Shown piece after piece: positions 15,565 through 36,554 of a DNA stretch of 64,000 bases. The position numbers were made by a program, and so were the translations under genes. The first letter of the stretch is position 1. Every line of letters starts with the position of its first letter. The notes beneath the pieces were generated by a model, which searched no databases, was not told the origin of the DNA, and saw nothing but the letters and a program-made list of their open reading frames with translations. The stretch comes from Desulfobacula sp. (GTDB lineage: Bacteria > Desulfobacterota > Desulfobacteria > Desulfobacterales > Desulfobacteraceae), in assembly GCF_030145145.1 (NCBI RefSeq), contig NZ_JAQYWD010000007.1, positions 1 to 64,000 of the forward strand, written 5' to 3'.

Positions 15565-16389
15565 GTGTATTATATATATTTTCCTTATGTGACACTCCTT
15601 GCTGCATTAATGCTCTATGACTGTTATCAACTAAAACAACCCCGATGGTGGGCCCTTGCAGTTTTGCTTGCCCCTGTCACAACCCCCTATTTTATTTTTA
15701 AATCCCGTAAAGAATCCGGTGTCAAATTTTTTATGTTTTTTATCGTCACTTTTTGTGCGGTGACAGGGGGGGAGCTTTTTTTGTATTCAAAGGGGGTGAA
15801 CAGGCATCACTATGCCCATCAGATGCCCGAGATACGACAAATGATCCATCTCAGTGATCAGTTAAAAACAACAACCATGAAACTGGATCATGAGTTGGGC
15901 ATACTGGAAAATTTAACGAAAATTGAATCCAGGGCCCATGAAATTAAATCGACATTTGAATTTGTCGAACACGTGATAAATCTCTTGAAGATCAATCAGG
16001 AAGCCATCAAACAAATGGTGACCTATTCATCGGATCATGAAACGTTTTTTATCGGAAGAAATCTTGAGTGGGTATTAACACTTCGAAACTTTTATACGAA
16101 CAGAAATGTTATCCAGCATTATAAAAGTCTGCAAAACTATCTGGATCGTTTTGCAGACGTATTGAAATATACCTATGTCAATTTTTATAATATTACCGAG
16201 TATAAAAGCCTGGAGCATCTTAAAAACTATGACGAATACTATTTGCGGTATCGCAGGGCAATAGACAGTCACAACCGGTTCAATACCAAACGAATCGATT
16301 TTCAAAACGTGTTTGCAGACACCTATCCGGACCTCAAATCCTTTCTTCCCGGGGAACGTCAGACAGATACTTTCAGGTTATGGGAATAG
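15565..16389 (+). CDS. hypothetical membrane-anchored helical protein
   Basis: The 274-residue protein begins with two or three hydrophobic segments (about 5-75), one containing a PYFIFKSRK turn as in small phospholipid- or quinone-region membrane proteins. A long mainly helical, Lys/His/Tyr-rich soluble part follows. It starts at a GTG four bases after the comEC stop, so it is probably cotranscribed and coupled. It converges on the activase gene and their 3' ends overlap by 31 bp. I do not recognise the family, and no catalytic motif is seen. Confidence 0.6.
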   Translation: MYYIYFPYVTLLAALMLYDCYQLKQPRWWALAVLLAPVTTPYFIFKSRKESGVKFFMFFIVTFCAVTGGELFLYSKGVNRHHYAHQMPEIRQMIHLSDQLKTTTMKLDHELGILENLTKIESRAHEIKSTFEFVEHVINLLKINQEAIKQMVTYSSDHETFFIGRNLEWVLTLRNFYTNRNVIQHYKSLQNYLDRFADVLKYTYVNFYNITEYKSLEHLKNYDEYYLRYRRAIDSHNRFNTKRIDFQNVFADTYPDLKSFLPGERQTDTFRLWE

Positions 16390-19300
16390 GGCTTTTTCCC
16401 TGAATTTTTGAGAAACGGGAGGATGACCTTGTTCTTATTCCCCCCGGAAACGTCGTAGGTGATGCTGACAATGGGGATGTTAATTTTGGATTCAATTTTC
16501 TGGGCCATGGCTTCGGTAATAAGTCCTGCACAACAGAAGGCCGGATTGGTTTGAACCAGCAAGTTTAAATCAGGATATTCATTGATGATATGGTGAATTT
16601 TTAAAATATTATCCATTGATTCGCCCGTATGTTCCCGAAGAATGCCGTATTCGGAAAGGATATGCTTCGGCGAAGCCTTTACTTCAAACGCAGATTTGCT
16701 CAAAATGGGTTCAAAATATTTATAATATTTTTTTTCCATGGCCTGCATGGCCACAAACAAAGATTTGTTTGAAATCAGGCTGAAGTATCTGCCTTCCGTA
16801 AACCATTTCTTAAAATAAGCATCTGCAATGATTTTGACATATTTGTAGTAGGGCGTGGTAATGACTTCCCCTCCATTGTCTTCAATATAGCGTACCAGAT
16901 CCTGATTCATTATGGGATTATCCCTGACATACAGGTCACCGAAAATGCCCACTTTAGGCCGTGACTCCGTTCTGGTTTCAATGTCTGAAAACAGTGCAAT
17001 GGCACTTTTTAATGCCGTCTCTTTGGATGTTCCTTTTTCAAAGGCAGTGCACAAAATGTTTAATGCGGTTTGAAGTGCCTGATCTGTTTTTCCCTTGTGA
17101 ATTTCATAGGGTCTGATTTTGCAGCCAATGCTTCTTAACAACCCGCCAAACATATAGGAAAAATATCCATTGACGGATGCGCGAAGAGAGATATCAGACA
17201 ATGACAGCTCGCCTTTCTGGATTTCAGAGGTTTCAAATCCATTCCCATTTTTTTCAAGAATTTTTTTGATGTGATAGGGATACATCTTAATATTGCAGGC
17301 AATTTCCGAATGATTTAAGCGTAACACACACTGGGACGGGTCAAGCTTGTTTTTTTCAACCGTGTGAATAAATCCGGCGGCCAGGGCATTTAGCGGAAGA
17401 CATTGACCCGTGTTGGTCAGTATGCTTTTTTTCAAGGTTTCCTGGGTCTCTTCCATTAAAATGGCATCAAATCCTTCATTCTTTAATACAGATACAAGCA
17501 GGCTGCCGGTATACGAATCCCAGTTTGGATAAATAATGGTTTTATTGTTGATTTTTGATGAAAATTTTGGATGGAGAGGCGACATATCACCAGAAATGAT
17601 GGTTGGTATGGATTTGTCATGATTTTTAAATGCGTTTACGGCCGCTTCAACTCGGGTCTCATACCCCACACTGGAATCATGTTCGTCCAGTTCTAATACA
17701 AGATAAGGCTTATTGTGCCTTTCCATTATTTGTTTGAAATACTCAATCCCGAAGGAATCGGGTGCACATTTAAATGAACTGATATAAACCGGATACAGAT
17801 GATCACACGTTGCTGCTATATACGCGGCCTTGAGAATCTGGGCGGTATTTTTCCAATGGATCTCTTTTAATAATGGATCGATTGCTGAAAAATCATGATT
17901 TTCCACATCAAGCATATCCTGGAAAGCCGTTTTTACCCCTAAATTTTCAAAAATTTCCGGGATATTGTTGTTCATGGTTCGGGTTAAAATCGTGTAGGGT
18001 CTTCCCAAAAAGACAACATTGATATCCTTGCCCCGGGATTGATATTGCTGATATATCGCTTTTTGGTTTAATTGTGTCTTTTCTTTAAAGTCCACAGCAC
18101 TATCATATGCAGTTGAAATGTCGAAAAATGAAAACAAAAAGTCAGAAGAAATGGTTTTTAAGGCTTTGTATAATTCCAGTTTGGTATGAAAATTGGTGTA
18201 CAGGTATTTGATGATCGGCGACAGGATTTTTTTTCTATCAATATCCGGCAGGCAGGCGATCACCGATGGACTGAACTGCGTATAGTAACACTGTTGTCGG
18301 CGGCGGTTTTTCCCTTTTGGTTTTTCTTCAAAATAGAAGGGCAGGAAAACATAATCTGCTTTATCCATCAGATACATCACATGACCATGCAAGGATACCA
18401 TGGGGGCGCAGAATTCAGCGGTTGCAAAATTTTTTCCGAATTTTACCGGATGCACCAGCGAAGAACTGGTGACGGTTTTAATGCCCAGTCTGGAGAAAAA
18501 ATGAACCCAGAAATCGGTGTCTTCAAACAGATGGAGTGCCTTGGGGATTCCCATGACAAACTGATGTTTTTTGATGATGGGGGAAGGGGTTTCTGGAAGG
18601 GCTTTTTTCCTTAATTTCAATAGATTATAGGTGTTTTCCTTTGCCATCATTTTTTTGGTCTCATAATCCCTGCCACATAAAAATCCATAGGCAACGGTTT
18701 CATCTCCCATTTCCGCAATGGTGAGTTTGCAGTGATTGGTGCACAGATGACAGGTTTCCTGGCGGATGGGGATCTCTTGTTTCCACAGTTTGAACCCTCT
18801 AAACTTCGAAACCCGGAGATGTTTTTCTTTTAATAGCAGGGCCACGCCAAGGGCACCTGTCAGATGACAGTACTTGGAGACATTAATGGGCTTTTTTAAC
18901 CGTTGTTCAAATGCTGCCACAAGGGCCTTGTTTTTGGCGGTTGCCCCCTGGAAAAGAATGCAATTGCCTATTTTGGCGATATTGGCGACTTTTGTCAGAT
19001 AATTGTCCCTCACAGAGTGTAAAACCGAGGCCAGGATTTCATTTTTCTGATATCCCTGGGCAAAATAATAATTAATATCCCTTTCCATGAAAACAGTACA
19101 CCTGTCACTGGCAACAGGCGATGCCACCCCTTCGGTGCGCTGGGAATACTCGGACAGCGGACACTCAAGTTTCAGGGCCTGCTCTTCGATAAAACTGCCC
19201 GTTCCTGCAGCACACACGGTATTCATGAAAGCGGAAGTGACCCGGCCGTCTTTGAGCAGGGTGAACTTGGCATCCTGTCCTCCGATTTCGATAATGGTGT

Positions 19301-20576
19301 CTACGGCCCCGTTTAAATTAACGGCTGCTGTGGCATGGGCAGTAATTTCATCGGGTTCAATATCCGCACCGATAATTTTACCACCGATTCTTCGACCGGA
19401 CCCTGTGGTTCCACACCCTTGAATGGTCATGTCAATCCCATATGTTTTTAGAAATTGATCATAGGCTTTAAAAATTTTTTGAATCGCCTTAACCGGTTGT
19501 GAGGCTGTTTTTGTATAAAATCCGGCAATGGGTATCCCATCCTGATTAATGAGGATGCTTTTGGTACTGGTGGATCCGACATCCAATCCCAGATATCCGT
19601 GTATGATCCGTATGTCTGCTGGATTTTGATAAATATCCATTTCCACACCGTCATCAACAGACGAGGAAAAGTAGATAAAATCAGGATATTCAGACAGTAA
19701 AAGTTCAAGTTTCGGAGATAAAAGGATGGGGTCTTTTTTTGAAAAAATAAAAAAGTCACCTATAGACCGGTATTTTTGTTTCATCATTTTTTTCTGGTTG
19801 ACCTGGTCATCCAAAAGGCAGAGTGCCGCACCAGTGGCACTATAATAAATGGCGTTTGCATCAATGGTAAATCCATGACCGGTAATGTCTTCCAGATGGG
19901 TTTTAACCGACAGGTTTTGAGAGACACCACCGCAAAAAAGAATTTTTTTGCCCACAGGTCTATCATTAAAAAGGGTGTTGGAAATGTTCTTTGCCAGGCC
20001 ATAACACAGGCCATCACAGATTTGTTCAACGTCATATCCTTCCTGTTGGGCATGGATAAGATCTGTCTTGGCAAACACGGCACACCGGGTGGCAATATCT
20101 GGAATTTTTTTTGTGTTTAAACGGGCTTTTTTGCTGAGTTCCCGGGAGCCGCCCAGCAGGTTTAACCTTCGCGCCTGTTGATCCAGGAAACTGCCTGTGC
20201 CGGCAGCACACGATGTGTTGTGTTTTGTCCCACTATACGTGTGATCCCCATCAAACCGACTCAATGAGAATCTTTCACCACCAATGTTTAAAATGGCATC
20301 AAAAGTTGGATGAAAGTAGTGGGCAGCCCGTATGAGGGTTAATTGTTCGTCATAAGACTGGGTGGCATTGACAAAAGAAGGCGTTGCGTCGGTAACGGCA
20401 ACATAGTGTATCTGTTGTATATCAATTTTTTCGATTAATTTTGAAAGGCATTGTTTTACTTCCCCATGATGTGAACACGTGTCAGTATGAACCAGAGTCC
20501 CTTTATCCGTTAGCACGACCATATGGATTGAGACGGAGCCGACATCAATGCCGAGGATATGAAATGAAGATGTCAT
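16359..20576 (-). CDS. giant acyl-CoA dehydratase activase-like protein (two BadF/HgdC ATPase domains)
   Basis: The 1405-residue protein holds two ASKHA-fold ATPase domains of the BadF/BadG/HgdC type. The first has GIDVGSVSIH, SCAAGTGSFLDQQA and a phosphate loop LFCGGVSQN. The second, from about residue 330, has GLDVGSTSTKS, EIGGQDAKF and CAAGTGSFIEEQA. A Cys-containing linker (CHLCTNHCKL) and a long DUF2229/HgdB-like C-terminal region follow. HgdC-type activators use ATP to push an electron into 2-hydroxyacyl-CoA dehydratases or benzoyl-CoA reductases. Fused giants of this type are widespread in anaerobes and their substrate is not established. It is preceded by a small DNA-binding-like gene two bases upstream. 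Confidence 0.85.
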   Translation of the reverse strand: MTSSFHILGIDVGSVSIHMVVLTDKGTLVHTDTCSHHGEVKQCLSKLIEKIDIQQIHYVAVTDATPSFVNATQSYDEQLTLIRAAHYFHPTFDAILNIGGERFSLSRFDGDHTYSGTKHNTSCAAGTGSFLDQQARRLNLLGGSRELSKKARLNTKKIPDIATRCAVFAKTDLIHAQQEGYDVEQICDGLCYGLAKNISNTLFNDRPVGKKILFCGGVSQNLSVKTHLEDITGHGFTIDANAIYYSATGAALCLLDDQVNQKKMMKQKYRSIGDFFIFSKKDPILLSPKLELLLSEYPDFIYFSSSVDDGVEMDIYQNPADIRIIHGYLGLDVGSTSTKSILINQDGIPIAGFYTKTASQPVKAIQKIFKAYDQFLKTYGIDMTIQGCGTTGSGRRIGGKIIGADIEPDEITAHATAAVNLNGAVDTIIEIGGQDAKFTLLKDGRVTSAFMNTVCAAGTGSFIEEQALKLECPLSEYSQRTEGVASPVASDRCTVFMERDINYYFAQGYQKNEILASVLHSVRDNYLTKVANIAKIGNCILFQGATAKNKALVAAFEQRLKKPINVSKYCHLTGALGVALLLKEKHLRVSKFRGFKLWKQEIPIRQETCHLCTNHCKLTIAEMGDETVAYGFLCGRDYETKKMMAKENTYNLLKLRKKALPETPSPIIKKHQFVMGIPKALHLFEDTDFWVHFFSRLGIKTVTSSSLVHPVKFGKNFATAEFCAPMVSLHGHVMYLMDKADYVFLPFYFEEKPKGKNRRRQQCYYTQFSPSVIACLPDIDRKKILSPIIKYLYTNFHTKLELYKALKTISSDFLFSFFDISTAYDSAVDFKEKTQLNQKAIYQQYQSRGKDINVVFLGRPYTILTRTMNNNIPEIFENLGVKTAFQDMLDVENHDFSAIDPLLKEIHWKNTAQILKAAYIAATCDHLYPVYISSFKCAPDSFGIEYFKQIMERHNKPYLVLELDEHDSSVGYETRVEAAVNAFKNHDKSIPTIISGDMSPLHPKFSSKINNKTIIYPNWDSYTGSLLVSVLKNEGFDAILMEETQETLKKSILTNTGQCLPLNALAAGFIHTVEKNKLDPSQCVLRLNHSEIACNIKMYPYHIKKILEKNGNGFETSEIQKGELSLSDISLRASVNGYFSYMFGGLLRSIGCKIRPYEIHKGKTDQALQTALNILCTAFEKGTSKETALKSAIALFSDIETRTESRPKVGIFGDLYVRDNPIMNQDLVRYIEDNGGEVITTPYYKYVKIIADAYFKKWFTEGRYFSLISNKSLFVAMQAMEKKYYKYFEPILSKSAFEVKASPKHILSEYGILREHTGESMDNILKIHHIINEYPDLNLLVQTNPAFCCAGLITEAMAQKIESKINIPIVSITYDVSGGNKNKVILPFLKNSGKKPYSHNLKVSV

Positions 20577-25486: not shown

Positions 25487-25804
25487 CTATACACATCCGG
25501 TTGGTTTCGGAAGACCAGCCATTTTACATGCGCCTTTTCCAGGTCCTGAAGGGAAAAGTTCATAGATGTGTTTCAGTTTGAATTTGGTCAGTTTGGAAAG
25601 AACACGAACCATTGGGGCAATACCATTTTTTTCATAGTAGTCCTGGAGAACTTTGATTAGTGTCCAGTGCTCGTCTGTAAGCTCTTCAATACCTTCTTGA
25701 GTCTTGACATAACCGACCCATTCTTCACAATAGGTGTTATAATCAAGAAGAAATCCGTCTTCATCTATGTCGAAAGCCTTACCATTAAAATCAATTGTTG
25801 CCAT
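25487..25804 (-). CDS. dsrC: DsrC/TusE sulfur-carrier protein
   Basis: The 105-residue protein is a true DsrC. The swinging C-terminal arm ends GACKMAGLPKPTGCV, with both conserved cysteines (the penultimate one, and the other ten residues before it). DsrC is the substrate of dissimilatory sulfite reductase and carries a trisulfide that is then reduced by membrane or soluble complexes. Strong AGGAGG precedes the ATG. It follows the Flx/Hdr operon by about 125 bp and has its own promoter and terminator, as expected of a highly expressed stand-alone gene. Confidence 0.95.
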   Translation of the reverse strand: MATIDFNGKAFDIDEDGFLLDYNTYCEEWVGYVKTQEGIEELTDEHWTLIKVLQDYYEKNGIAPMVRVLSKLTKFKLKHIYELFPSGPGKGACKMAGLPKPTGCV

Positions 25805-25928: not shown

Positions 25929-26774
25929 TTAATATTCTTTCGGCGTTTGGTTAAGTTCTTCAAGAGTAAAGACTGGACCGTCTTTACAAACCAACTCCTT
26001 CCCGATATTGCAGCGACCGCACATGCCGATTCCACATTTCATCCTGTTTTCCAGAGACATGATAATCTGATGTTCTTTATACCCTAATGCTGTCAAGGAT
26101 GGCTGGGTAAATTTGATCATGATCGGTGGTCCACAGATAATGGCATAGGTCTCTTCATCCGCCTTTGGTGCATTCTGCTCAACAATCTGGGGAACAAATC
26201 CGGTATGGTATCCCCAGTTTGGATCATCGGTGCCATCAACCGTAATATGCATATTGATATCATCCCGTTTTTCCCATTCAAAGAGCTCCTCTCGATACAG
26301 GAGCATGCCCGGAGATCTGGCACCATAGACCACGTCAATATTTTTGAATTTGCCTCGGTTGGCAGGATCCAGCATATAAATAATAGAGGATCTTAAGGTG
26401 GTAAATGCAAATCCACCACCAATAATGACCACATTCTTATTTTCCAGTTTATCCCAGGGATACCAATTGCCTAATGGCCCCCTGATGCCCATAATATCAC
26501 CTTTTTTCATATTATGAAGATGGGAGGTGACAACGCCCGCCCGGAATACGGTAAATTTGACAAATCCTTTTTCAACAGGAGATGATGCAATGCCAATAGG
26601 GATTTCACCGACACCCGGAATAGACAGTTCAGCAAACTGTCCGGCCTGATAGGAGAAGTTCTTTTCATCTTCCTTGTTTAAGAAGATAAATTTAAAGGTT
26701 TTTAAGGATTTATCTTCAGTTGCAATTTCAATATCATCAATGCGAACTGGATACGGCATATAGGGGTTTTCCAT
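25929..26774 (-). CDS. flxA: FlxA-like FAD/NAD(P)H oxidoreductase subunit
   Basis: The 281-residue protein has a ferredoxin-reductase-like FAD domain (AGQFAELSIPGVGEIPIGIASSP) and an NAD-binding domain (VVIIGGGFAFTTLRSSI). A C-terminal cluster motif, CGIGMCGRCNIG plus a later Cys, is typical of PyrK-like [2Fe-2S] binding. It matches the FAD/NAD subunit of FlxABCD-HdrABC complexes, sulfhydrogenase gamma and sulfite reductase B. The ATG at 26774 has perfect AAGGAGG; a frame extending to 26828 is rejected. It is the last gene of the large operon, 17 bp after flxB. Confidence 0.88.
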   Translation of the reverse strand: MENPYMPYPVRIDDIEIATEDKSLKTFKFIFLNKEDEKNFSYQAGQFAELSIPGVGEIPIGIASSPVEKGFVKFTVFRAGVVTSHLHNMKKGDIMGIRGPLGNWYPWDKLENKNVVIIGGGFAFTTLRSSIIYMLDPANRGKFKNIDVVYGARSPGMLLYREELFEWEKRDDINMHITVDGTDDPNWGYHTGFVPQIVEQNAPKADEETYAIICGPPIMIKFTQPSLTALGYKEHQIIMSLENRMKCGIGMCGRCNIGKELVCKDGPVFTLEELNQTPKEY

Positions 26775-26791
26775 GTTTCCTCCTTTGTTCG

Positions 26792-27844
26792 CTAATCTTG
26801 TTTCTCGTACGAGTTCATGATGTTGCACACTTCACGGATGTCGATGTTAACCGGACAGCTTTTAACACATCTGCCGCATCCAACACACATGATCCCCTGG
26901 TCATATTTATCCAGAAAATATTTGAGCTTATGCATAAACCGCTGCCTGACTCTCTGGGTCTTGGTCCCCCTGGGATTATGTCCTGTGGAATGCATGGTGA
27001 ACAAGGGCGACATGCAGGTGTCCCAATTTCGGATCCTGTCAGATATGTTTTGCTTGGTCTCATCCTGAATGTCAAAACACCAGCACGTGGGACAGACGAA
27101 CGTACACGTGCCGCAATTAATACAGGAAAATGAAATATCTTCCCAGAACGGCGCTTCATACAGCTCCAGAATGGTTTTTTCTTTTAACCGGGTGGTGTCC
27201 ATATGGGACACAATATTTTTTTCAGCTTGTTTGCGCAAAATATCCAACAACATCTGGCTTTCCGTTTCATCGGCGGTTGTATAAAACCCGCAGGCGTCGA
27301 TAAAGGCATCTCCCTTATCTGTAAGGACTTTTGCCAGATATGTATCGTCCAGATCCGCCAGCAGAACATCCAGGCCGTCTTCACCAAATGGCCCGGAACC
27401 TGCCGAAGTGGAAAAATCAAAGGGTCCGGGGGTGTTTATGCCCAGCCCGATGAACGTTGTTGCATCATAAGCGTCGCACCAGTAAGGATCTCGATAATCA
27501 ACCGTATCAAAATTAAGCTTGACCAGTTCCATTGCCTTTGCATCATAGGGTCTGATTCCCACAACCGCCCGGGGGGTATAATCGGTTGCCGTTCTTTTCA
27601 TGATGTGGTGATCTTTTTGTGATTCATCCAGGCTGGTGAAGAGCATTTTTTCTGTTTGCGGGAACAGTACTGATTTCGCCGACATAACCGTATCAGGATA
27701 CGTCATGTCAGGCAGGGTGTCATTTTCAAGGGGCTTGATAAGACAGCCGTTTTTATCTTTAACAGGACCAAAGAGCCGATAGGTTTCCCTGGATTTCCCA
27801 ATCCCCTTGGCCCAGTTTTTTTTATCAATAGTTATAAATCTCAT
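26792..27844 (-). CDS. flxB: FlxB-like iron-sulfur subunit (AsrA/HydB family)
   Basis: The 350-residue protein has the N-terminal domain of sulfhydrogenase beta/AsrA proteins (RAVVGIRPYDAKAME). Two C-terminal 4Fe-4S motifs follow: CINCGTCTFVCPTCWCFD and CVGCGRCVKSCP. It should pass electrons between the FAD/NAD subunit and the other iron-sulfur subunits. An AAGGG lies before the ATG. It is between flxC and flxA with short spacers of about 16 bp on each side. Confidence 0.85.
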   Translation of the reverse strand: MRFITIDKKNWAKGIGKSRETYRLFGPVKDKNGCLIKPLENDTLPDMTYPDTVMSAKSVLFPQTEKMLFTSLDESQKDHHIMKRTATDYTPRAVVGIRPYDAKAMELVKLNFDTVDYRDPYWCDAYDATTFIGLGINTPGPFDFSTSAGSGPFGEDGLDVLLADLDDTYLAKVLTDKGDAFIDACGFYTTADETESQMLLDILRKQAEKNIVSHMDTTRLKEKTILELYEAPFWEDISFSCINCGTCTFVCPTCWCFDIQDETKQNISDRIRNWDTCMSPLFTMHSTGHNPRGTKTQRVRQRFMHKLKYFLDKYDQGIMCVGCGRCVKSCPVNIDIREVCNIMNSYEKQD

Positions 27845-27860
27845 TGTATACCCTTTTTAT

Positions 27861-28808
27861 TTATTTGATAAAATCGTCGGGATCATCCGGACTGTATGCG
27901 TCCAGAGGTGGCCGTTTGGTGATATCCAAGCCTGCTTCCCAGCCGAACAGGTCAAAGACGTCTTTATTCAGCTTTCTTGTAAAGTCCCTGACATTAATAT
28001 CCATGGGACAGGCTTCAACACAAGCACCACAGTCTGTGCAGCGGCCGGCACAATGAAATGCCCTTAAAAAATGAAAGGTGTTGACATCGGTTGTGTTCTG
28101 ACCCTTACCCACCCATTGGGGACCGGATTCATCAACAAAGCAGGTGGGACAATAGCATAAGGGGCAGGCATTTCTACAGGCATAACATCGGATACAGTTT
28201 TTTGTTAAGTCTTGAAAATGCTGCCATTTCGTATCCGGTGTCATTGCTTCTATTTTTTTAACATCGGGATAGGGGCTCTCAAGTGTCTGTTCCTCAACAA
28301 GGTCAGCGGCCAGTGCATCATAAATCACGGGATTTTTATGCAGACACAGACGGCAGTTTTGTCTTAAATAATCTGTTTTGTTGAGCGTTTCTTCCTTTAA
28401 GGCGGATTTAACCGTCAAGGCATTGCCGTCTTCTGAGAATTCGATGATATCATCCTCGAATAAGGATGCGATTTTGGTTTTATCGATCATTCCGTTACAG
28501 GGCACACCAATAATATACAATTGGTCTCTTTGAACCTGATTTTCAACAATATGGGTGACAATGTTCCTCGTGTCACATCCTTTGGCAATCACGGCTATTT
28601 TACCTTTATGCTGCCTGATATAATTGGCCAGATTAAGTCCACAGGTTGAATTGAAAACAAGGGTTTCAATGTCTTTTGTTGATGTGATGGCAATCGGGCT
28701 TGTTGCCATGGGAATCGTTCCATTTGCAAACCCAATAACTTTTTCAACTTCTCCTTTATCCAGAAGTTCAAAAGAAAGTTCCCTGATTTTATTGATACAG
28801 GTATTCAT
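27861..28808 (-). CDS. flxC: FlxC-like iron-sulfur subunit
   Basis: The 315-residue protein has an N-terminal F420-hydrogenase/dehydrogenase beta-like region with a CDTRNIV motif near residue 75 and a CGLNLANY segment. It then has the cysteine groups CRLCLHK, CIRCYACRNACPLCYCPTC and CTDCGACVEACPMDIN. This matches the FlxC position of Flx clusters, with two C-terminal 4Fe-4S centres and extra cysteines. AAAGGTAAG lies before the ATG. Its start is 10 bp after the stop of the selenocysteine MvhD/FlxD gene. Confidence 0.85.
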   Translation of the reverse strand: MNTCINKIRELSFELLDKGEVEKVIGFANGTIPMATSPIAITSTKDIETLVFNSTCGLNLANYIRQHKGKIAVIAKGCDTRNIVTHIVENQVQRDQLYIIGVPCNGMIDKTKIASLFEDDIIEFSEDGNALTVKSALKEETLNKTDYLRQNCRLCLHKNPVIYDALAADLVEEQTLESPYPDVKKIEAMTPDTKWQHFQDLTKNCIRCYACRNACPLCYCPTCFVDESGPQWVGKGQNTTDVNTFHFLRAFHCAGRCTDCGACVEACPMDINVRDFTRKLNKDVFDLFGWEAGLDITKRPPLDAYSPDDPDDFIK

Positions 28809-28818
28809 AAACTTACCT

Positions 28819-29244
28819 TTATTTAGTATAGTCCTTTACAAATTTCTCGTTTGGCCCAAGTGCCCTTACCCTGTCTGAGACCTCTTTCACCACATCCACA
28901 AATTTTGTTGCTTCTGCCGATGAGATCCATGAAAAATGGACCCTGTCTCGTTCAATCCCCATATGCTCCAAAAGATTTCCCATGAGTGCAAATTTTCTGC
29001 GTGCGTAATAATTACCTTCCAGGTAATGGCATTCACCCGGATGTCAGCCGGACACCCAGACAGCGTCTGCGCCTTCCCTCAGGGCTGACAAGATAAATTT
29101 GGGGCTCAGTCTTCCGGTACAGGGGATTCGTATTACCCGGATGTCAGCAGGATATTGCATTCGGCTTACACCTGCCAGATCTGCAGCACCATAACTGCAC
29201 CAGTTGCACAAAAAAGCAACAATCTTCGTATTGTTTTCAACCAT
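28819..29244 (-). CDS. flxD: MvhD/FlxD-family electron transfer selenoprotein with in-frame UGA
   Basis: From the ATG at 29244 (AAGGAGAG upstream) the frame runs 66 codons to TGA at 29044-29046, then stays open to TAA at 28819-28821, giving 141 residues. The TGA replaces the cysteine of the family motif GCHPGDCHY: here it reads [19 protein letters not shown], with U at residue 67. The N-terminal [19 protein letters not shown] and [12 protein letters not shown] supply the other cluster cysteines. MvhD passes electrons between HdrA and its partner. Sec at this place is known in some methanogen homologues. A stem-loop of SECIS type lies just after the UGA. Conventional callers split or truncate this gene. 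Confidence 0.88.
29011..29027 (-). promoter_or_regulatory. candidate bacterial SECIS hairpin (flxD)
   Basis: In the mRNA, AUUACC and GGUAAU pair around the 5-nt loop UGGAA. The apical loop begins 23 nt after the UGA, within the spacing of known bacterial SECIS elements, and contains the GG expected for SelB contact. The pairing is seen directly; the function is inferred. Confidence 0.6.
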
Positions 29245-29257
29245 TAGTGATCTCTCC

Positions 29258-32200
29258 TTATACTGCTTCATTCATCGCAAATATTTGTGCAAATATTTGA
29301 TTTGTATCAAACCCCTTAAGATGGATGGCACCGGATCTGCAGGAGGCAACGCACAAACCGCATCCTTTGCAAAGCACCGGATTGATTTCAGCCGTTCCTT
29401 CAAATCTGCCTTGAGTGGCAAAAGACGGCGCAGCATATGGACAGATGGAGACACAGACACCACAGGAACTACACACCATCGGGTCGATATTTGCCACATT
29501 GCCGCTGGTATGAATCGTTTCTTTTGCCAACAAGGTTACCGCCCGGGACGCTGCCGCCTGCCCATGGGCGATGGCTTCGTCAATGGGTTTGGGGTAGTGG
29601 GCAAGACCGCAAAGAAAAACACCATCGGTTGCAAACTCAGAAGGTCCTAATTTTGCATGTCTTTCCACAAAAAAGCCATCTTCATTCAGGGGGACTTTAA
29701 AGAAATTTGCCAGTCGTTCATCCTTGTTGGGGACAATGGCCGTGGCCAATGTTAACAGATCTGCCTCAATTTCCAGGGGCTGTCCCAGTACATGGTCCGT
29801 AACCGTTACCAAAACCTTGCCCTCTTTTAACTGAATATCGGGTTTATTCTCTAAAGCGTATCGGACAAAGATGATCCCGGCCTCCCGGGCCGCCTGGTAT
29901 TTGTACTCCCTTTCTCCATAGGTTCTGATATCCCTGTAGAGAATAAAGATTTCCATTTCCGGGTTGATTTTTTTAAGCGCCAGGGCATTGTCAATGGAAT
30001 GGGTACAGCAGACCCTTGAACAATAAGGACGATCCGGTTCCCTTGATCCGACACACTGGATAAATACGGCTGCGTTTAACGCTTTTAGTGATGGGTCTCT
30101 GTCAATGAATCGTTTGTCAAGGTCAAGGGTTGTCATGATTCTGTCATCCTTGCCATATTCGTATTCATTTGGAATATATGCTTTTGCACCCGTTGCAATA
30201 ACGGCGATGCCATGTTCAAGGGAGGACGGTTCTTTGTTGCACAATAATTCTGATTTAAAATTACCCACAAATCCTTCAACAGCTTCAAGGGTTGTGTTCA
30301 GATGGATGTGAATTTTTTCATTGTTTTCAACTTCCTGGACCAAGGATCCTAGCTCCTTGGCAATATCTTCGTCCTTGTAAGTATGAAAGAGATTGTTTGC
30401 CTGACCGCCAAGCCGTTGGTCCTTTTCAACCACATGAACATGGTACCCTTGCTGGGCAAGGGTTTTTGCCGCGGTAATGCCGGATATGCCACCACCAATG
30501 ACCATGGCCACCGGATTGACCTGCAGTTCTGCTTCCTCAAGGGGTTCCATCAGGGCCACCTTGGATACGGCCATGCGGACAAGATCCTTTGCCTTTTGAG
30601 TGGCCAGCTCCGGTGTGTCCTTGTGAACCCAGGAGGCATGATTCCGGATATTGGTCATTTCAAACAGGTATTTATTGAGGCCGGCATTTACCAGGGTTTC
30701 CTGAAACAGGGGCTCATGGGTTTTGGGGGTACAGGCGGCAACAACGATGCGGTTGAGGTTATTGGCCTTGATGATCTGGCTCATGCTCTCCTGGGTGTCC
30801 TGGGAACACGAGTAAAGATTATCAGAACAATATTCAACATAGGGCAGGGTGGCCGCATAATCCCGAACATTGGGTACGTTCACGACACTGGCAATGTTGG
30901 TGCCGCATTTACAGACAAAAACGCCGATTCTCGGACGATCGCCTATAATATTGGTTTCCGGGATGACCTCGGGGAGTTTTGTTTGGGTATTTCTGGCACT
31001 GGCCAGCATGGCACCGGCTTCACCGGCCGCTGCATTTGAATCCACCACTGACTGGGGGATATCCTTGGGGCCCTGGAAGGCGCCGGCCACAAAAATGCCT
31101 TTTTTGTTGGTTTCCACCGGTTTGAAAGTGGATGTTTTGGCAAAATTTCCATCGGTGAGTTCAATGCCCAGTTTTTTTGCCATGTCCACAATTTCAGGAG
31201 AAATTTCAAGACCAATGGACAGAACAATCATGTCAAAGATTTCATCAACTTTTTCGCCGCTCTCAGTCACATAAGTGACCTGCAGGTCATCTGAATCGTG
31301 AAGGGGATCAACGGTGTGAACCCGGCTTCTTAAAAATCGGATTCCCTGATCCTGGGCCCGGTTGTAATATCTCTCAAAATCCTTGCCATGGGTTCGCATA
31401 TCCATGTAAAAAATGGCGCAGTCAAGGTCATCTCCTGCATGTTCTTTGGCAATGACGGCCTCTTTCAGGGCATACATGCAGCAAACGGAAGAACAATATT
31501 TATTGTCGCATTTGTTCATGTCCCTTGACCCGACACACTGGAACCAGGCAATTTTTTTAGGTTCCTTATGATCGGACATTCTTGTCAGATGTCCGCTGGT
31601 GGGGCCGGAGGCGGAAAGAATCCGCTCAAATTCCATGGCGGTCATGACATTGGGATGATTGGCATACCCATAATTATCAAATTTAGAGGGATCAAAGGGG
31701 GTAAATCCCGGAGAGAGGACCACAGCACCTGCATCAATCTCTATGATTTCATCTTCCATGGTGTAATCAATGGCATCCATCTGGCAGATGTCTGAACAAA
31801 CCCCGCAACCGCCTGATTTAAAGTGCATGCACACCTCCCGGTCAATGGCCGGGGTATTGGGGACGGCCTGGGCATAGGGCACGTAAACCGGTTTTCTGCC
31901 TTTCAGGCCCATTTCATATTCCGATGGAATCATAAACGGGTGTTGTTTTGTGAACTCATTTTTGATTTTTTCAAGGGTGATATGACCTGTGGGGCAGACC
32001 GAGGCACAGGCACCACAGGCCATGCAAACGTCGGATTGAAGACCAAAGGGGGTATCAATCTTCATATCTGTTCCGCGGCCGGTGAGGCTGATGGCGCTGT
32101 TTCCCATTCTTTCACACATGCGTACGCAAAGTCCGCAAAGAATACAATCGTCATCCTGCTTAGGGAAACGGGGTTCTTTAATTTTGTACTCTTTTGCCAA

Positions 32201-32512
32201 CTTTTTTAAAAGCGGTACCTCCGGACATCTGGCATAAAGCATTTCAACAATGAGTTTTCTTCCCTGGTGCACAGCCGGGGTGTTGGTATTGATTTGCATG
32301 CCTTCCCATATGGGATAATTGCATGCCGTGACAAACTTTGTTCTTCTGCCGTCAAAGAGTTCAACTGTACAGATACGGCACATCCCTGCCGGTTCCAGTG
32401 CTTTGTGATGGCAAAGGGTGGGGATTTCCACACCGTATTTTTCGGCAACCTGAATGATATATTGCCCGTCTTCTCCTTGAACCTCTTTACCGTTAAGTTT
32501 AAAAGTTACCAT
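29258..32512 (-). CDS. NuoG-HdrA-HdrA fusion, iron-sulfur flavoprotein
   Basis: The 1084-residue protein starts with a NuoG/HydA-type [2Fe-2S] domain (C34, C45, C48, C64) and two 4Fe-4S motifs ([22 protein letters not shown]). Residues of about 203-510 follow the HdrA pattern but start in mid-protein, after the first FAD glycine motif: [33 protein letters not shown]. From about 525 a second HdrA unit has its own [12 protein letters not shown] (about 671-682), [17 protein letters not shown] and two closing 4Fe-4S motifs. It is probably the electron hub, linking NuoEF and MvhD. The first unit's missing FAD-binding start is encoded at the head of the operon. AAGGG lies before the ATG. Confidence 0.9.
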
Positions 32513-32542: not shown

Positions 32543-34456
32543 TTATTTGATAACGATGGCATTAAATTTACATGCATCGTAACAAATTCCACATTTAATG
32601 CATTTATCCTGTTCCAGAAGGTGGGGTTCTTTTTTTTCACCCGTGATGGCATTCTGGGGGCATTTTTTTGCACAGACGGTGCAGCCGGTGCAGGCGTTCT
32701 CATCAATCTCATAAAAGAACAGGTTCTTACAGACACCCGCTTTACATTTTTTGTCAATGATATGAGATTCATATTCTTCCCTGAAATATTTAATGGTGGT
32801 CAGAACAGGGTTGGGAGCAGAGGTGCCAAGGCCGCAAAGTGAAAATTTTTCAATCATTGACCCCAGTTCTTCAAGCAGTTCAATATCGCCCTCTTTTCCC
32901 TTACCTTCACAGATGGCCGTAAGGATATCCAGGGATTGTTTGATCCCTTCCCGGCAAGGGTTGCACTGACCGCAGGACTCTTCTTTCAAAAAATCAAGGA
33001 AATATCGGGCAACATCCACCAGGCAGGTGTCCTGATCCATGACAATCATACCACCGGATCCCATTATGGAACCGACCCGGGCCAGTTGCTGGTAATCCAC
33101 GGGCGTGTCCATCAGGCTTTCCGGAATGCATCCGCCGGAAGGCCCGCCGGTTTGAATGGCCTTGAATTTTTTTTTCCCGGGTACCCCTTGTCCCATATTA
33201 AAGACAATCTCCCGTAAAGATATGCCCATGGGAACCTCAATCAAGCCGGTGTTCTTTACCTTTCCCACAAGACTGAAGGCCTTGGTCCCTTTGCTGTTAT
33301 CCGTGCCGAATCCTGCGTACCAGCCCCCCCCTTTGAGGAGGATGGCCGGAACATTGGCATAGGTTTCAACATTATTAAGGTTAGACGGTTGATCCCGGAA
33401 TCCTTTTTCAACGGTATGCACATATTTGGCTCTGGGCCGACCGACTTTCCCTTCAAGAGATGCCATGAGGGCCGTGGATTCGCCACAGACAAATGCGCCC
33501 GCACCGGTGGAGATTTTTATTTTAAAGGAAAACGTGCTGCCGGCAATATTATCCCCCAGCAGACCGTAGGCCGTGGCCTGTTTTATGGCGGTCACAAGCC
33601 GTTTTACTGCCAGGGGATATTCATTTCTGACATACATAAATCCTTGAGAAGATCCAATGGCAAGGCCGGCGATGAGCATGCCCTCAATGACCGAATGGGG
33701 ATCCCCCTCCAGAATACTTCGATCCATGTAAGCGCCAGGATCTCCTTCATCCGCATTGCAGATAATGTATCGTTCTCCGCTGAACTTTGCACAGGTAGCC
33801 CATTTAATACCGGTGGGAAACCCCCCGCCACCTCGACCTCGCAGGCCTGATTCCTTAATAGTGGTGATGATATCCTGGGGCTTGTTTGTCTTAAGTGCCG
33901 TAAGAAAGGCGGTGTATCCTTGTTTTCCAAAGTACTCTTCAATGCTGTCCGGGTTAATATACCCACAGTTTCTCAGAGCGATCTTCACCTGGCCTTTGAA
34001 AAAAGGGGTTTCCTCAAGAAAGGGGATGCCTTCCACAGGGTCAATATTTTCCTGGGGGTTGTCCATATCATTTTCAAGAAGAGACCGCGGGTCTTTTACC
34101 TGTCCTAAAATATGCTTTCGGGTCTTTTTGTTGTTAAACGCATTGTGTCTATAATCGTTGATAATATCCACAATGTTATCTTTGGTTACATTTTTATACA
34201 TCATGCGGGGTTTGGTCCTGGAAAGAATTTCAACCAATGGCTCAACCTCACAATAACCGATGCATCCTGTCTGGCAGATGTCAATGCCGGTATCGTTTGA
34301 GAATTCGTGTTTTGCCGCATCAAAGGACGCTCTTGCACCGGCTGCAATACCACAGGAAGCCATTCCCACATTCACTTTGATGGTTTCAGGAAGGTTCAGC
34401 TTTAGCCGGTATTCCTCTTTTATTTGTTCCAGATCTGTTACAGACTGAATAGTCAT
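32543..34456 (-). CDS. nuoF: NuoF-like NADH-binding FMN subunit
   Basis: The 637-residue protein has an N-terminal thioredoxin-like [2Fe-2S] segment (CGIAAGARASF, CQTGCIGYCE). The NuoF core carries GRGGGGFPTGIKW and ICNADEGDPGAYMDR for FMN/NADH, then an SLBB segment. A 4Fe-4S site, CGQCNPCREG, and two C-terminal ferredoxin motifs (CTGCTVCAKKCP, CIKCGICYDACK) follow. This is the HndC/HydB layout of soluble bifurcating dehydrogenases rather than the respiratory complex I form. GAGGGATGAATC precedes the ATG. Confidence 0.92.
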   Translation of the reverse strand: MTIQSVTDLEQIKEEYRLKLNLPETIKVNVGMASCGIAAGARASFDAAKHEFSNDTGIDICQTGCIGYCEVEPLVEILSRTKPRMMYKNVTKDNIVDIINDYRHNAFNNKKTRKHILGQVKDPRSLLENDMDNPQENIDPVEGIPFLEETPFFKGQVKIALRNCGYINPDSIEEYFGKQGYTAFLTALKTNKPQDIITTIKESGLRGRGGGGFPTGIKWATCAKFSGERYIICNADEGDPGAYMDRSILEGDPHSVIEGMLIAGLAIGSSQGFMYVRNEYPLAVKRLVTAIKQATAYGLLGDNIAGSTFSFKIKISTGAGAFVCGESTALMASLEGKVGRPRAKYVHTVEKGFRDQPSNLNNVETYANVPAILLKGGGWYAGFGTDNSKGTKAFSLVGKVKNTGLIEVPMGISLREIVFNMGQGVPGKKKFKAIQTGGPSGGCIPESLMDTPVDYQQLARVGSIMGSGGMIVMDQDTCLVDVARYFLDFLKEESCGQCNPCREGIKQSLDILTAICEGKGKEGDIELLEELGSMIEKFSLCGLGTSAPNPVLTTIKYFREEYESHIIDKKCKAGVCKNLFFYEIDENACTGCTVCAKKCPQNAITGEKKEPHLLEQDKCIKCGICYDACKFNAIVIK

Positions 34457-34552: not shown

Positions 34553-35050
34553 TTATTCGTATTGATGTAATACAGTGTCGATTTGATCAGGCGCAATGCG
34601 ACCATGCATATCTTCATTGATTTTAATGACCGGGCCTAGACTGCAACAGCCGATACAACGAACAGATTCAAGGGTATATCGCTTGTCTTCAGTTGTTTCA
34701 CCGTCTTTAATCTCAAGGGTCTTTTCAAGCTGTTCCCGGACGCGTTCCCCCCCCCTGACATGGCAGGCAGTTCCAAGGCATATGGAAACAATATTTCGAC
34801 CCCTTGGTTCGAGGCTGAAGGTACTATAAAACGTGCCGACTTCGTAAATTTTGCTGTAAGGGATGTCCAGTTTTTCTGATGCGTACAAAAGCGTTGCCTT
34901 GGGAAGGTAATTGTATCGACGTTGAATGGCCTGAAGGATCATAATCAGATTTTCCTTTTCACCGTCAAATTCTTTTTCAATGATCTGGTCCAACTCCAGA
35001 TAATCGATTTCTTCACCATCATTGCCAGGTTGAGTCGTCACTTTACTCAT
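34553..35050 (-). CDS. nuoE: NuoE-like [2Fe-2S] subunit
   Basis: The 165-residue thioredoxin-like ferredoxin has the four cluster cysteines in CLGTACHVRGG and RCIGCCSLGP. The helical N-terminus includes LIMILQAIQRRYNYLP. It forms the NADH-dehydrogenase module with NuoF. GAGGAGAATTACAG precedes the ATG. Its start is 46 bp after the stop of the HdrA N-terminal piece, and nuoF begins about 96 bp later. Confidence 0.92.
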   Translation of the reverse strand: MSKVTTQPGNDGEEIDYLELDQIIEKEFDGEKENLIMILQAIQRRYNYLPKATLLYASEKLDIPYSKIYEVGTFYSTFSLEPRGRNIVSICLGTACHVRGGERVREQLEKTLEIKDGETTEDKRYTLESVRCIGCCSLGPVIKINEDMHGRIAPDQIDTVLHQYE

Positions 35051-35096
35051 CTGTAATTCTCCTCGATAATGAACAGATTTTTAAAAGCGCTTTAAA

Positions 35097-35483
35097 TTAC
35101 ACGGCTACAATCTGTTGTGTCACAGGACAGTTTTCAACACACTCTCCGCATCCGGTACAGCGGTCTGTGTATATGCTTCGGGCCCGTTTTTTGATTTTGA
35201 CCTTGAAATTTCCAGCAGTGCCTTCAATGGATTCAATGTCAGCGTATGTGATTAATTCAATGTTTAGATGCCGGCCGACCTCGACCAGTGTGGGTGAAAT
35301 AATTCACATGGCACAATCATTTGTCGGAAATGTCTTATCCAGTTGAGACATGACACCGCCAATGGAGGGGCTTTTTTCCACCAGATAAACATAGAATCCG
35401 GAATTTGCAAGATCAAGGGCTGAGAGCATGCCGGAAATACCACCGCCAATAACCACTACAGATCCTGTTTGTTTGCTCCTCAT
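35097..35483 (-). CDS. split HdrA N-terminal selenoprotein with in-frame UGA
   Basis: The ATG at 35483 follows AAGGAG. The frame reads 59 codons to TGA at 35304-35306, then continues to TAA at 35097-35099, giving 128 residues. It contains the HdrA FAD glycine motif [17 protein letters not shown] and a second motif, [18 protein letters not shown]. The TGA falls where HdrA has CAMC: it reads [18 protein letters not shown], with U at residue 60. One 4Fe-4S motif follows (C109, C112, C115, C119). Full HdrA is about 650 residues, so this is a stand-alone N-terminal piece. Its missing continuation matches residues from about 203 of the NuoG-HdrA fusion downstream. HdrA with Sec at this motif is known in other anaerobes. 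Confidence 0.85.
35271..35288 (-). promoter_or_regulatory. candidate bacterial SECIS hairpin (split hdrA)
   Basis: In the mRNA, CUGGUC pairs throughout with GGCCGG (four Watson-Crick and two G-U pairs) around the loop GAGGUC. That loop resembles the AGGUCU loop of E. coli fdhF. The loop starts 22 nt after the UGA. This is strong local support for selenocysteine insertion. Confidence 0.65.
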
Positions 35484-35584
35484 AAGTAACACTCTCCTTT
35501 TTCTATTATATCACTTAAACATTTTGATAACATGAAACTGCTTATAATCTTAAAAACTTATATTTTTTTAAAAAAGAGTTTATG

Positions 35585-35613
35585 TTATAAATCGATCCAT
35601 CAAATGGTGTCAA
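35585..35613 (-). promoter_or_regulatory. promoter of the Hdr/Nuo/Flx operon
   Basis: On the minus strand, TTGACA (35608-35613) and TTATAA (35585-35590) are separated by 17 bp. It lies about 100 bp upstream of the first gene and diverges from miaA. No operator is evident. Confidence 0.55.
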
Positions 35614-35642
35614 CAATTATCGAACGAACATAAATATTTGCT

Positions 35643-36554
35643 ATGAAAAAACTGATTATTATTTGCGGGCCCACAGGAATCGGTAAAACCTCATTTGCCA
35701 TCTCAGTTGCCCAGCGGTTTAATGGAGAAATCATTGGTGCGGATTCTTTGCAGATCTACAAATACCTGAATATCGGAACGGCAAAACCGGAACCCGGGGA
35801 GGTGAAACAAGTCCGTCATCACCTGATTGATTTTGTTGATCCCAAAGATGATTTTGATGCCGGCTGCTATGTTGAGGCCGCCGATAAAGCCATTGAAGAT
35901 ATTACAGCCCGGGGTAAGCTTCCGATTGTGACCGGTGGGACAGGGCTTTATATCAGGGCCCTTTTGAACGGATTGTTTCGGTCAGCACCCCTGTGCAAAA
36001 AAACCATGTCGCAATTGACCAAAGAACTTGAGGACCAGGGCAGCCTGAAATTGTATCAAAAACTGGTACAATGTGATCCTGAAGCGGCCCGGAAAATTCA
36101 TCCAAACGATTCGTTCAGGGTCATCAGGGCATTGGAAGTTTACCAGGCAACCGGTCAAAGGATTTCCGATCGGCACAACAGGCATCGGTTTGATGAGGTG
36201 CGGTATACCAGCATGAAAATCGGACTCCATATGGACAGAGAAACGCTGTATGACCACATCAATAAACGGGTTGACATCATGCTGCATCAAGGCCTGCTCA
36301 ATGAAGTTGTCACCTTGCTTGAAAAAGGATATACGCTTGATCTAAAACCCCTGCAGTCCATTGGGTATAAACATATGGCCATGTTCATCAACCATGAAGT
36401 CGATTGGACAGAGGCTGTCCGGCTGTTTAAACGGGATACGCGAAGATATGCCAAACGGCAGTTTACATGGTTTCATAAGGATAAAGAGATTCATTGGTTG
36501 ATGCCGTCCCAGGTTGATCTGGCTGAACAGATGATAAAAGAATTTTTGACATAG
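35643..36554 (+). CDS. miaA: tRNA dimethylallyltransferase
   Basis: The 303-residue enzyme adds an isoprenyl group to A37 of tRNAs that read codons starting with U. It has the P-loop CGPTGIGKTSFAI, the ADSLQIYKYLNIGTAKP motif, DPKDDFDAG and GGTGLYIRALL. Length is normal. The spacer to the next gene carries a small hairpin (TGCCC/GGGCA at 36616-36629) and a larger palindrome. Confidence 0.95.
   Translation: MKKLIIICGPTGIGKTSFAISVAQRFNGEIIGADSLQIYKYLNIGTAKPEPGEVKQVRHHLIDFVDPKDDFDAGCYVEAADKAIEDITARGKLPIVTGGTGLYIRALLNGLFRSAPLCKKTMSQLTKELEDQGSLKLYQKLVQCDPEAARKIHPNDSFRVIRALEVYQATGQRISDRHNRHRFDEVRYTSMKIGLHMDRETLYDHINKRVDIMLHQGLLNEVVTLLEKGYTLDLKPLQSIGYKHMAMFINHEVDWTEAVRLFKRDTRRYAKRQFTWFHKDKEIHWLMPSQVDLAEQMIKEFLT

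Follow-up and report, generated by a model that had tools for sequence, protein, structure and literature searches.

The window, the whole stretch of 64,000 nucleotides from Desulfobacula sp. that was analysed, harbours on its minus strand a small gene for the N-terminal part of HdrA (HdrAn) together with genes for NuoE-, NuoF-, NuoG/HdrA- and MvhD-type proteins and further redox proteins. The following features were assigned, with the basis of each assignment in brackets:

35492–35497, minus strand: GGAGAG, resembling a ribosome site, before the ATG (read from the sequence)
35097–35483, minus strand: HdrAn, 128 aa with Sec60 (translation with TGA = U, 5odc alignment, conserved residues)
35304–35306, minus strand: UGA codon for U60, within NDCAMU (translation; SECIS comparison; selB and tRNA-Sec)
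35271–35288, minus strand: SECIS stem-loop core with a 7-bp stem and a 4-nt loop (fold and comparison)
34553–35050, minus strand: NuoE/BfuC-type [2Fe-2S] subunit, 165 aa (domain and structure matches)
32543–34456, minus strand: NuoF/BfuB-type subunit with a C-terminal 2[4Fe-4S] domain, 637 aa (domain and structure matches)
29258–32512, minus strand: 1084-aa fusion of a NuoG-type domain, HdrAc and a second HdrA unit (domain matches, 5odc alignment)
31958–32512, minus strand: NuoG/BfuA-type domain of the fusion, approximately residues 1–185 (domain match, 5odc alignment)
30983–31942, minus strand: HdrAc, fusion residues 191–510 (5odc alignment, conserved residues)
29261–30940, minus strand: second HdrA unit, fusion residues 525–1084 (5odc alignment, conserved residues)
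28819–29244, minus strand: MvhD-type subunit, start codon assumed (domain and structure matches)
27861–28808, minus strand: ferredoxin-like Fe-S protein of a conserved downstream module (domain match, locus comparison)
26792–27844, minus strand: sulfhydrogenase-beta-like Fe-S protein (matches, locus comparison)
25929–26828, minus strand: sulfhydrogenase-gamma-like FAD/NAD-binding protein (matches, locus comparison)
25487–25804, minus strand: DsrC/TusE-family protein, closing the module (matches, locus comparison)

The proteins encoded at 27861–28808, 26792–27844 and 25929–26828 are labelled here FlxC-like, FlxB-like and FlxA-like, respectively.

The frame of HdrAn ends with a TAA stop codon and contains a single in-frame UGA. 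Translation with TGA = U yielded a protein with the motifs GGGISG (the GGG motif for FAD) and NDCAMU and a stretch of 13 residues representing the first ferredoxin motif (C109, C112, C115 and C119); its C-terminus lies nine residues past the final cysteine of this motif. The product aligned with residues 145–258 of HdrA from the methanogen complex 5odc and with four other solved HdrA sequences, which confirms an earlier note on this DNA describing the gene, read through its UGA, as the first part of HdrA with an FAD motif, NDCAM-U and one 4Fe-4S site. The thioredoxin-reductase-type FAD-binding domain of HdrA, with GGG and NDC(S/A)x(C/U), was thus found in the small chain. The ribosome site noted earlier was located as the GGAGAG-like stretch, and a bare TATAAT is present at 35505–35510. 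The promoter claimed at the same time was not supported: a consensus scan of 35000–35700 gave 2 promoter-like sites versus 2.1 expected, one on the plus strand and the other on the minus strand at 35687–35658, about 175 bases upstream of HdrAn and within the divergent neighbour gene.

Sec60 aligned without gaps with Cys197 of 5odc HdrA. The genome encodes SelB (346.7 bits, over the family cut-off; C41) and tRNA-Sec (76.5 bits, over the gathering score; C20); the absence of selB and selC, named previously as an argument against the split-HdrA reading, was not observed. Counted from the first base of the UGA, the SECIS core starts at a distance of 18 nt. The SECIS-like hairpin, already proposed from the letters, was unremarkable as a 60-nt fold alone (z = −1.55) but strongly supported by comparison: the 18-nt core was identical in 71 of 73 distinct Sec sequences of split HdrA, with one change in the other two, and sites flanking it vary synonymously. 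Furthermore, 64 of 70 Sec sequences from unsplit HdrA share the identical core, but none of the seven split and 13 unsplit Cys sequences does (15 unsplit ones minus L290, which was misplaced, and L267, which is the same gene as L237). Among 86 HdrAn proteins, 79 have Sec and 7 have Cys at this position. With a UGA aligned with the cysteine of relatives, a SECIS element, selB and tRNA-Sec, HdrAn is predicted to be a bacterial selenoprotein, of which gene calling without Sec would give a 59-codon stub. The MvhD-type gene also contains an in-frame UGA (29044–29046, VSGUHPGECHY), probably a Sec codon; hence, the gene cluster probably makes two selenoproteins.

The continuation of HdrA had been placed in the 1084-residue fusion three genes downstream, with a NuoG-type domain in front, and the alignment bears this out: residues 191–400 of the fusion matched 5odc HdrA residues 256–459. 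Since HdrAn ends at 258 and the fusion resumes at 256, the two parts abut. Fusion residues 525–757 aligned with 5odc residues 2–235, and residues 897–1080 with 466–649; from this three-piece alignment, the fusion consists of the remainder of the first HdrA unit (HdrAc) and a second unit. Within the inserted 2[4Fe-4S] ferredoxin domain, the break point falls after the first cysteine motif and before the second. This domain with both cluster motifs is provided by the pair only, and the single polypeptide of HdrA is replaced here by two genes, three apart. HdrAc carries C228/C236/C239/C243, C326/C340/C344/C345, E296 and K350, and the last two correspond to E356 and K409 of 5odc, given in the available part of PMC12054007 as residues for the bifurcating FAD. 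The second HdrA unit has an N-terminal cluster domain (C534/C536/C569/C594) and a C-terminal ferredoxin domain, and has no NDC motif.

The distribution of the fusion was analyzed by means of its NuoG-type/HdrA junction, which was present at ≥84% identity in 10 of 86 genomes of the family, including that of the window, and at an E-value of 1e-50 or better in 108 of 389 genomes sampled from the class. Including named loci, 125 fusion loci were collected, the majority from metagenome assemblies, and 113 remained after duplicates had been dropped by nucleotide identity. At least 3320 nt of upstream sequence was available for 91 of them. In 84 of the 91, HdrAn precedes the fusion in the same orientation; it is a gene of its own in 83 and part of the fusion chain in L237. 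L097 and L196, with shorter upstream sequence, also show HdrAn. The stop codon lies 7 to 20 residues past the fourth cysteine in 83 loci (L237, L255 and L261 excluded). Comparison of homologous loci, suggested in the earlier note, thus revealed that the short gene and its place are kept. Selection on HdrAn was estimated according to Nei and Gojobori; dN/dS had a median of 0.067 and a maximum of 0.108 (50 finite values from 55 pairs of 11 loci), values which are rough because dS is high.

These results bear on the possibility that HdrAn is a pseudogene, namely a truncated hdrA remnant in which the UGA is an ordinary stop. Full-length HdrA paralogues do exist in the genome of the window, and unsplit HdrA heads homologous operons elsewhere. 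However, a dN/dS of about 0.07, the conserved position and end point of a gene kept separate in 83 of 91 loci, the invariance of the SECIS core across almost all Sec genes and its alteration in the Cys ones, and the presence of selB and tRNA-Sec make decay, against which the earlier note had also argued, extremely improbable.

In the split HdrAn proteins, C57, Sec/Cys60 and the four cysteines of the first ferredoxin motif (C109–C119) were invariant in 82 of 82 sequences, counted without L196, L237, L255 and L261. The second motif (C228, C236, C239 and C243), E296 and K350, and also the four cysteines in the N-terminal domain of the second unit, were kept in 98 of 98 fusions, counted without L237 and proteins of 900 aa or less. 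An NDC motif occurred in the second unit in 0 of 99 proteins. The equivalent of K409 in the second unit, positioned five residues past its CC pair, is mixed: D in 37, E in 35 and K in 22 of 98 proteins. Therefore, the bifurcating flavin is most likely bound in the split unit with its invariant E296/K350; as the 22 proteins with K indicate, its confinement to this unit is not certain.

Seven of the 91 loci (L247, L250, L252 and L256–L259) have no neighbouring HdrAn. A whole-genome search of these seven genomes and of G330 revealed that in six of the seven cases the genome encodes a free HdrAn elsewhere, which still adjoins NuoE although it is away from the fusion; the pairs are L247 with L309, L250 with L310, L252 with L311, L256 with L306, L257 with L305 and L258 with L307, and the distance is about 3 Mb along the contig for L311 and about 10 kb for L305. 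For L259 (G277, 81% complete), the whole-genome search found no free HdrAn despite the fusion. Among the 389 class genomes, 87 contain both parts, 21 only the fusion, 6 only a free HdrAn and 275 neither, counts which ignore shared ancestry; HdrAn was scored as free by a cut of 220 aa, and G126 was assigned by hand because an upstream run of N inflates its frame (130 aa in L315). On reading the loci of the fusion-only genomes, nine (G051, G162, G218, G235, G330, G342, G375, G380 and G390) turned out to carry a truncated, diverged or lower-scoring HdrAn; in ten others the contig end was hit first, in G329 the match starts at contig base 1, and G277 showed none. Five of the six HdrAn-only genomes have lost the following genes to a contig end (L297, L298 and L302–L304). 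The sixth, G212, owes its place in this group to a Cys-type copy; it additionally contains a Sec-type copy that is truncated and sits at a contig end. An unlinked coincidence of the two genes was rejected, since both parts are conserved across many genomes.

In genome G284 (L237), HdrAn, the NuoG-type domain, HdrAc and the second unit are encoded by a single frame of 1259 residues with Cys in place of Sec. The junction was detected in 21 of 395 genomes from the phylum, and 14 of the 21 lie outside the class. Of 16 loci read from these 14 genomes, 15 show HdrAn (L334 is cut off), which is fused in frame to NuoE in 13 and free in two (L325 and L326). A tree of HdrAn united the split forms and L237 in one clade with 98% SH-aLRT support (118 columns, quick method); L237 hence looks like a re-fusion because its HdrAn sits inside the split clade. 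L255 and L261 fall outside this clade. Both have Cys, HdrAn is found about 2.9 kb upstream of the fusion and preceded by a match to the HdrA N-terminal domain, and they represent a separate lineage. In the HdrAc tree (FastTree), 102 fused forms and L267 formed one clade (97%). Addition of NuoE-fused forms (10 of 13 loci) to the HdrAn tree gave no resolution; with HdrAc, a single origin of all fused forms was not rejected (p-AU 0.40; the sample comprised 9 of the 16 outside loci, 40 of the 102 fusions in the class and 40 of the 76 unsplit sequences).

HdrAn might also work on its own as a free flavo/Fe-S or redox-Sec protein outside the first HdrA unit, as the earlier note had considered under the name of an independent carrier. 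It is a separate gene, and a Cys-type free HdrAn occurs beside MvhD without its own adjacent HdrAc (see below). The protein comprises only half of an FAD domain and one of two ferredoxin motifs, however, and the fusion is without exactly this part. Moreover, HdrAn tracks the fusion in the genomes, adjoins NuoE even away from it, and is naturally joined to NuoE (13 of 15 loci) or to NuoG::HdrAc (L237), so that an independent function appears very unlikely. The split-flavoprotein reading put forward earlier is supported by the abutting homology, the conservation, the natural joins and the co-occurrence; HdrA in many sulfate reducers seems to consist of two proteins, a tiny Sec-containing piece and a partner without exactly that piece.

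The genes behind the split HdrA were compared with those of related operons. Behind split HdrA, 17 of 20 named loci with >4200 nt downstream contain MvhD and the three Flx-like genes; the same holds for 8 of the 9 HdrL loci that extend far enough and for 21 of 24 with unsplit HdrA. All of these loci are nearest relatives because they were found using the fusion of the window as query. The common module fits insertion of a nuoEFG cassette into the hdrA gene of an existing operon. It further follows that full-length HdrA occurs in homologous operons; these differ from the locus in the window by the whole cassette, and a full-length frame with a frameshift here, which had been named as evidence against a split, was not found. 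We infer that an hdrA-mvhD-flxCBA-like operon already existed when a nuoE-nuoF-nuoG(N) cassette was inserted into its hdrA gene, at a point separating both cluster motifs of the inserted ferredoxin domain. The 5′ portion of hdrA would thereby have been left as a free gene, or as the front end of NuoE in genomes outside the class, and the 3′ portion would have been joined to the end of NuoG. The DsrC/TusE-family gene is present in 13 of 20 named split loci with room. This recurrence and its position at the end of the cluster suggest a link to the sulfur carrier DsrC, which may be a thiol partner of the predicted complex.

The cassette resembles the core of the Bfu family. The NuoF-type protein has an extra C-terminal 2[4Fe-4S] domain (Fer4 domains at 583–636) and is accompanied by a NuoE-type subunit; its solved relatives include the bifurcating HydB, with a match reaching residue 634, and its N-terminal [2Fe-2S] domain was matched below the curated cut-off only. 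The Bfu family including Bam-Bfu likewise combines NuoE, NuoF with C-terminal 2[4Fe-4S] and a NuoG-type subunit, and Bam-Bfu also carries HdrA; however, the available part of PMC9304861 describes no BfuA-HdrA fusion and no split HdrA. Methanogen HdrA (5odc, HdrABC-MvhAGD) shows the same fold segments, cluster cysteines, NDC with Cys197 and E356/K409 equivalents in one chain, whereas here the ferredoxin domain is cut between two chains and the second bears a NuoG-type domain. HdrL, or type III HdrA with a GltD- or NfnB-like insert, likewise has a foreign electron-input module in the inserted ferredoxin domain according to partial published accounts, but the insert lies within one chain and further on, past an AQAVP stretch; here, NuoEFG are encoded by separate genes, the chain is broken, and a NuoG-type domain is found instead of a GltD-type domain. 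FlxABCD-HdrABC contains HdrB with CCG domains, and a CCG domain was found in none of the eight cluster proteins scanned.

Fused double HdrA proteins (type II in PMC12054007, HdrA3/4 in PMC9012536, as far as the available text goes) similarly combine an N-terminal cluster domain in one unit with Cys/Sec197 in the other, but in our case the first unit is divided over two genes, and Sec is encoded by the small one. An 'hdrA_N-unknown-hdrA_C' arrangement in Deltaproteobacteria, with HdrA N- and C-parts around something of unknown function, is mentioned in PMC1794560; in the portion available, this is one clause on hydrogenase operons that, unlike the present analysis, includes no nuoEFG, free Sec subunit or mechanism. 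Published excerpts report nuoEFG-mvhD units and other units with hdrA, mvhD and nuoEFG for Desulfotignum phosphitoxidans, and describe HdrL of Desulfobacterium autotrophicum as a heterodisulfide reductase/glutamate synthase fusion. No account of a split HdrA with nuoEFG in between was found in searches of an open-licence literature library. The predicted two-chain HdrA joined with nuoEFG is a new form of the HdrA/Bfu bifurcating enzymes.

In the 2[4Fe-4S] ferredoxin fold, each cluster takes three cysteines from one motif and the fourth from the other. As the break lies inside the inserted ferredoxin domain, Fe-S clusters and flavin would be shared between the chains: after translation, two chains would rebuild one HdrA fold, in which each [4Fe-4S] cluster of the inserted domain may be held by three cysteines of one chain and a single cysteine of the other. 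Four of the eight ferredoxin cysteines would come from the small chain, which, with its GGG dinucleotide-binding motif, would also provide half of the FAD site; the large chain would supply E296 and K350, the equivalents of residues reported to tune the bifurcating FAD. In the solved complex, according to the available part of PMC9012536, one HdrA contributes Cys197 to complete the N-terminal cluster of its partner, the inserted ferredoxin domain hands electrons towards ferredoxin, and fused or tandem HdrA proteins retain the Cys197 and N-terminal cluster features complementarily. Since the second HdrA unit has the N-terminal domain but no NDC, and the small protein has Sec/Cys60 in 82 of 82 cases, Sec60 would complete this cluster as a ligand. 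Three clusters and the bifurcating FAD would thus be placed at the chain interface, and the complex may exchange electrons among NADH (via NuoEF, the Bfu-type core), ferredoxin and the MvhD/Flx-like module.

Structure predictions neither favoured nor contradicted this shared-cluster scheme. AlphaFold2 modelled the small chain alone with moderate confidence (pLDDT 68.2, pTM 0.57) and a poor global match to HdrA (TM 0.55, rmsd ~7.5 Å); for the fusion, confidence was below 50 at residues 120–172 and 183–223, and the joint is therefore shown by no model. An assembly or docking factor that delivers FAD or clusters, or bridges NuoE to HdrA, while staying outside the electron path would be in line with HdrAn neighbouring or being fused to NuoE in the loci read. 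The retention of cluster-motif residues in 82 of 82 small chains, including Sec/Cys at a ligand position, and of the complementary residues in 98 of 98 fusions argues against such a role, to which we assign little probability.

Judged from sequence comparison, the two chains very probably form one unit again, built around common metal clusters and a single flavin. We consider it likely, with good confidence, that the 128-residue protein serves as the obligate small subunit in a split HdrA, that it arose from insertion of the nuoEFG cassette, and that the chains share clusters and FAD. If so, two chains that are translated separately, and of which one is a selenoprotein, would together build a bifurcating flavin site and three [4Fe-4S] clusters, and nature would have provided a test of how much division the core of an electron-bifurcating enzyme tolerates. 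It would also tie the Bfu and HdrA families into one assembly and suggest how sulfate reducers plug NADH into an HdrA-MvhD-Flx-like system.

A more far-reaching idea, which we regard as rather doubtful, is that the Sec small chain acts as a detachable selenium-dependent gate and the HdrA ferredoxin domain as a general socket for electron-input modules. With selenium, the UGA would be read and the small chain produced, the shared clusters and FAD would form, and NADH oxidation would be coupled to ferredoxin; without selenium, translation would end after residue 59, the ferredoxin branch would be omitted and NuoEF would operate uncoupled. In the course of evolution, GltD, NuoEFG and an Fe-S module of NaphS2 would each have been plugged into the ferredoxin domain, sometimes cutting the chain.

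In NaphS2 (L146:1007–5131), another module interrupts HdrA within the same ferredoxin domain. One half is a 320-aa Sec protein that combines HdrAn with Fe-S domains. The other is a protein of 1034 aa containing HdrAc and a second unit; its front end appears FrhB-like by eye, with no Pfam match there. The same MvhD-Flx-like genes come next. Another type of free HdrAn of about 128 aa, with Cys and not Sec, was observed at L312:8333–9196, L300:4488–5347, L301:2605–3470 and L299:5176–5568, directly after MvhD in three of the four loci; NuoE was not found there. No HdrAc was found in the 14 kb read of L312, where activator-like and dehydratase-type-like genes follow. A free HdrAn beside MvhD without an adjacent HdrAc implies that not every free HdrAn has to be complemented by a protein encoded next to it. 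In the window itself, a minus-strand frame of 1405 aa at 16359–20576 resembles a CoA-substrate activator/dehydratase-type protein.
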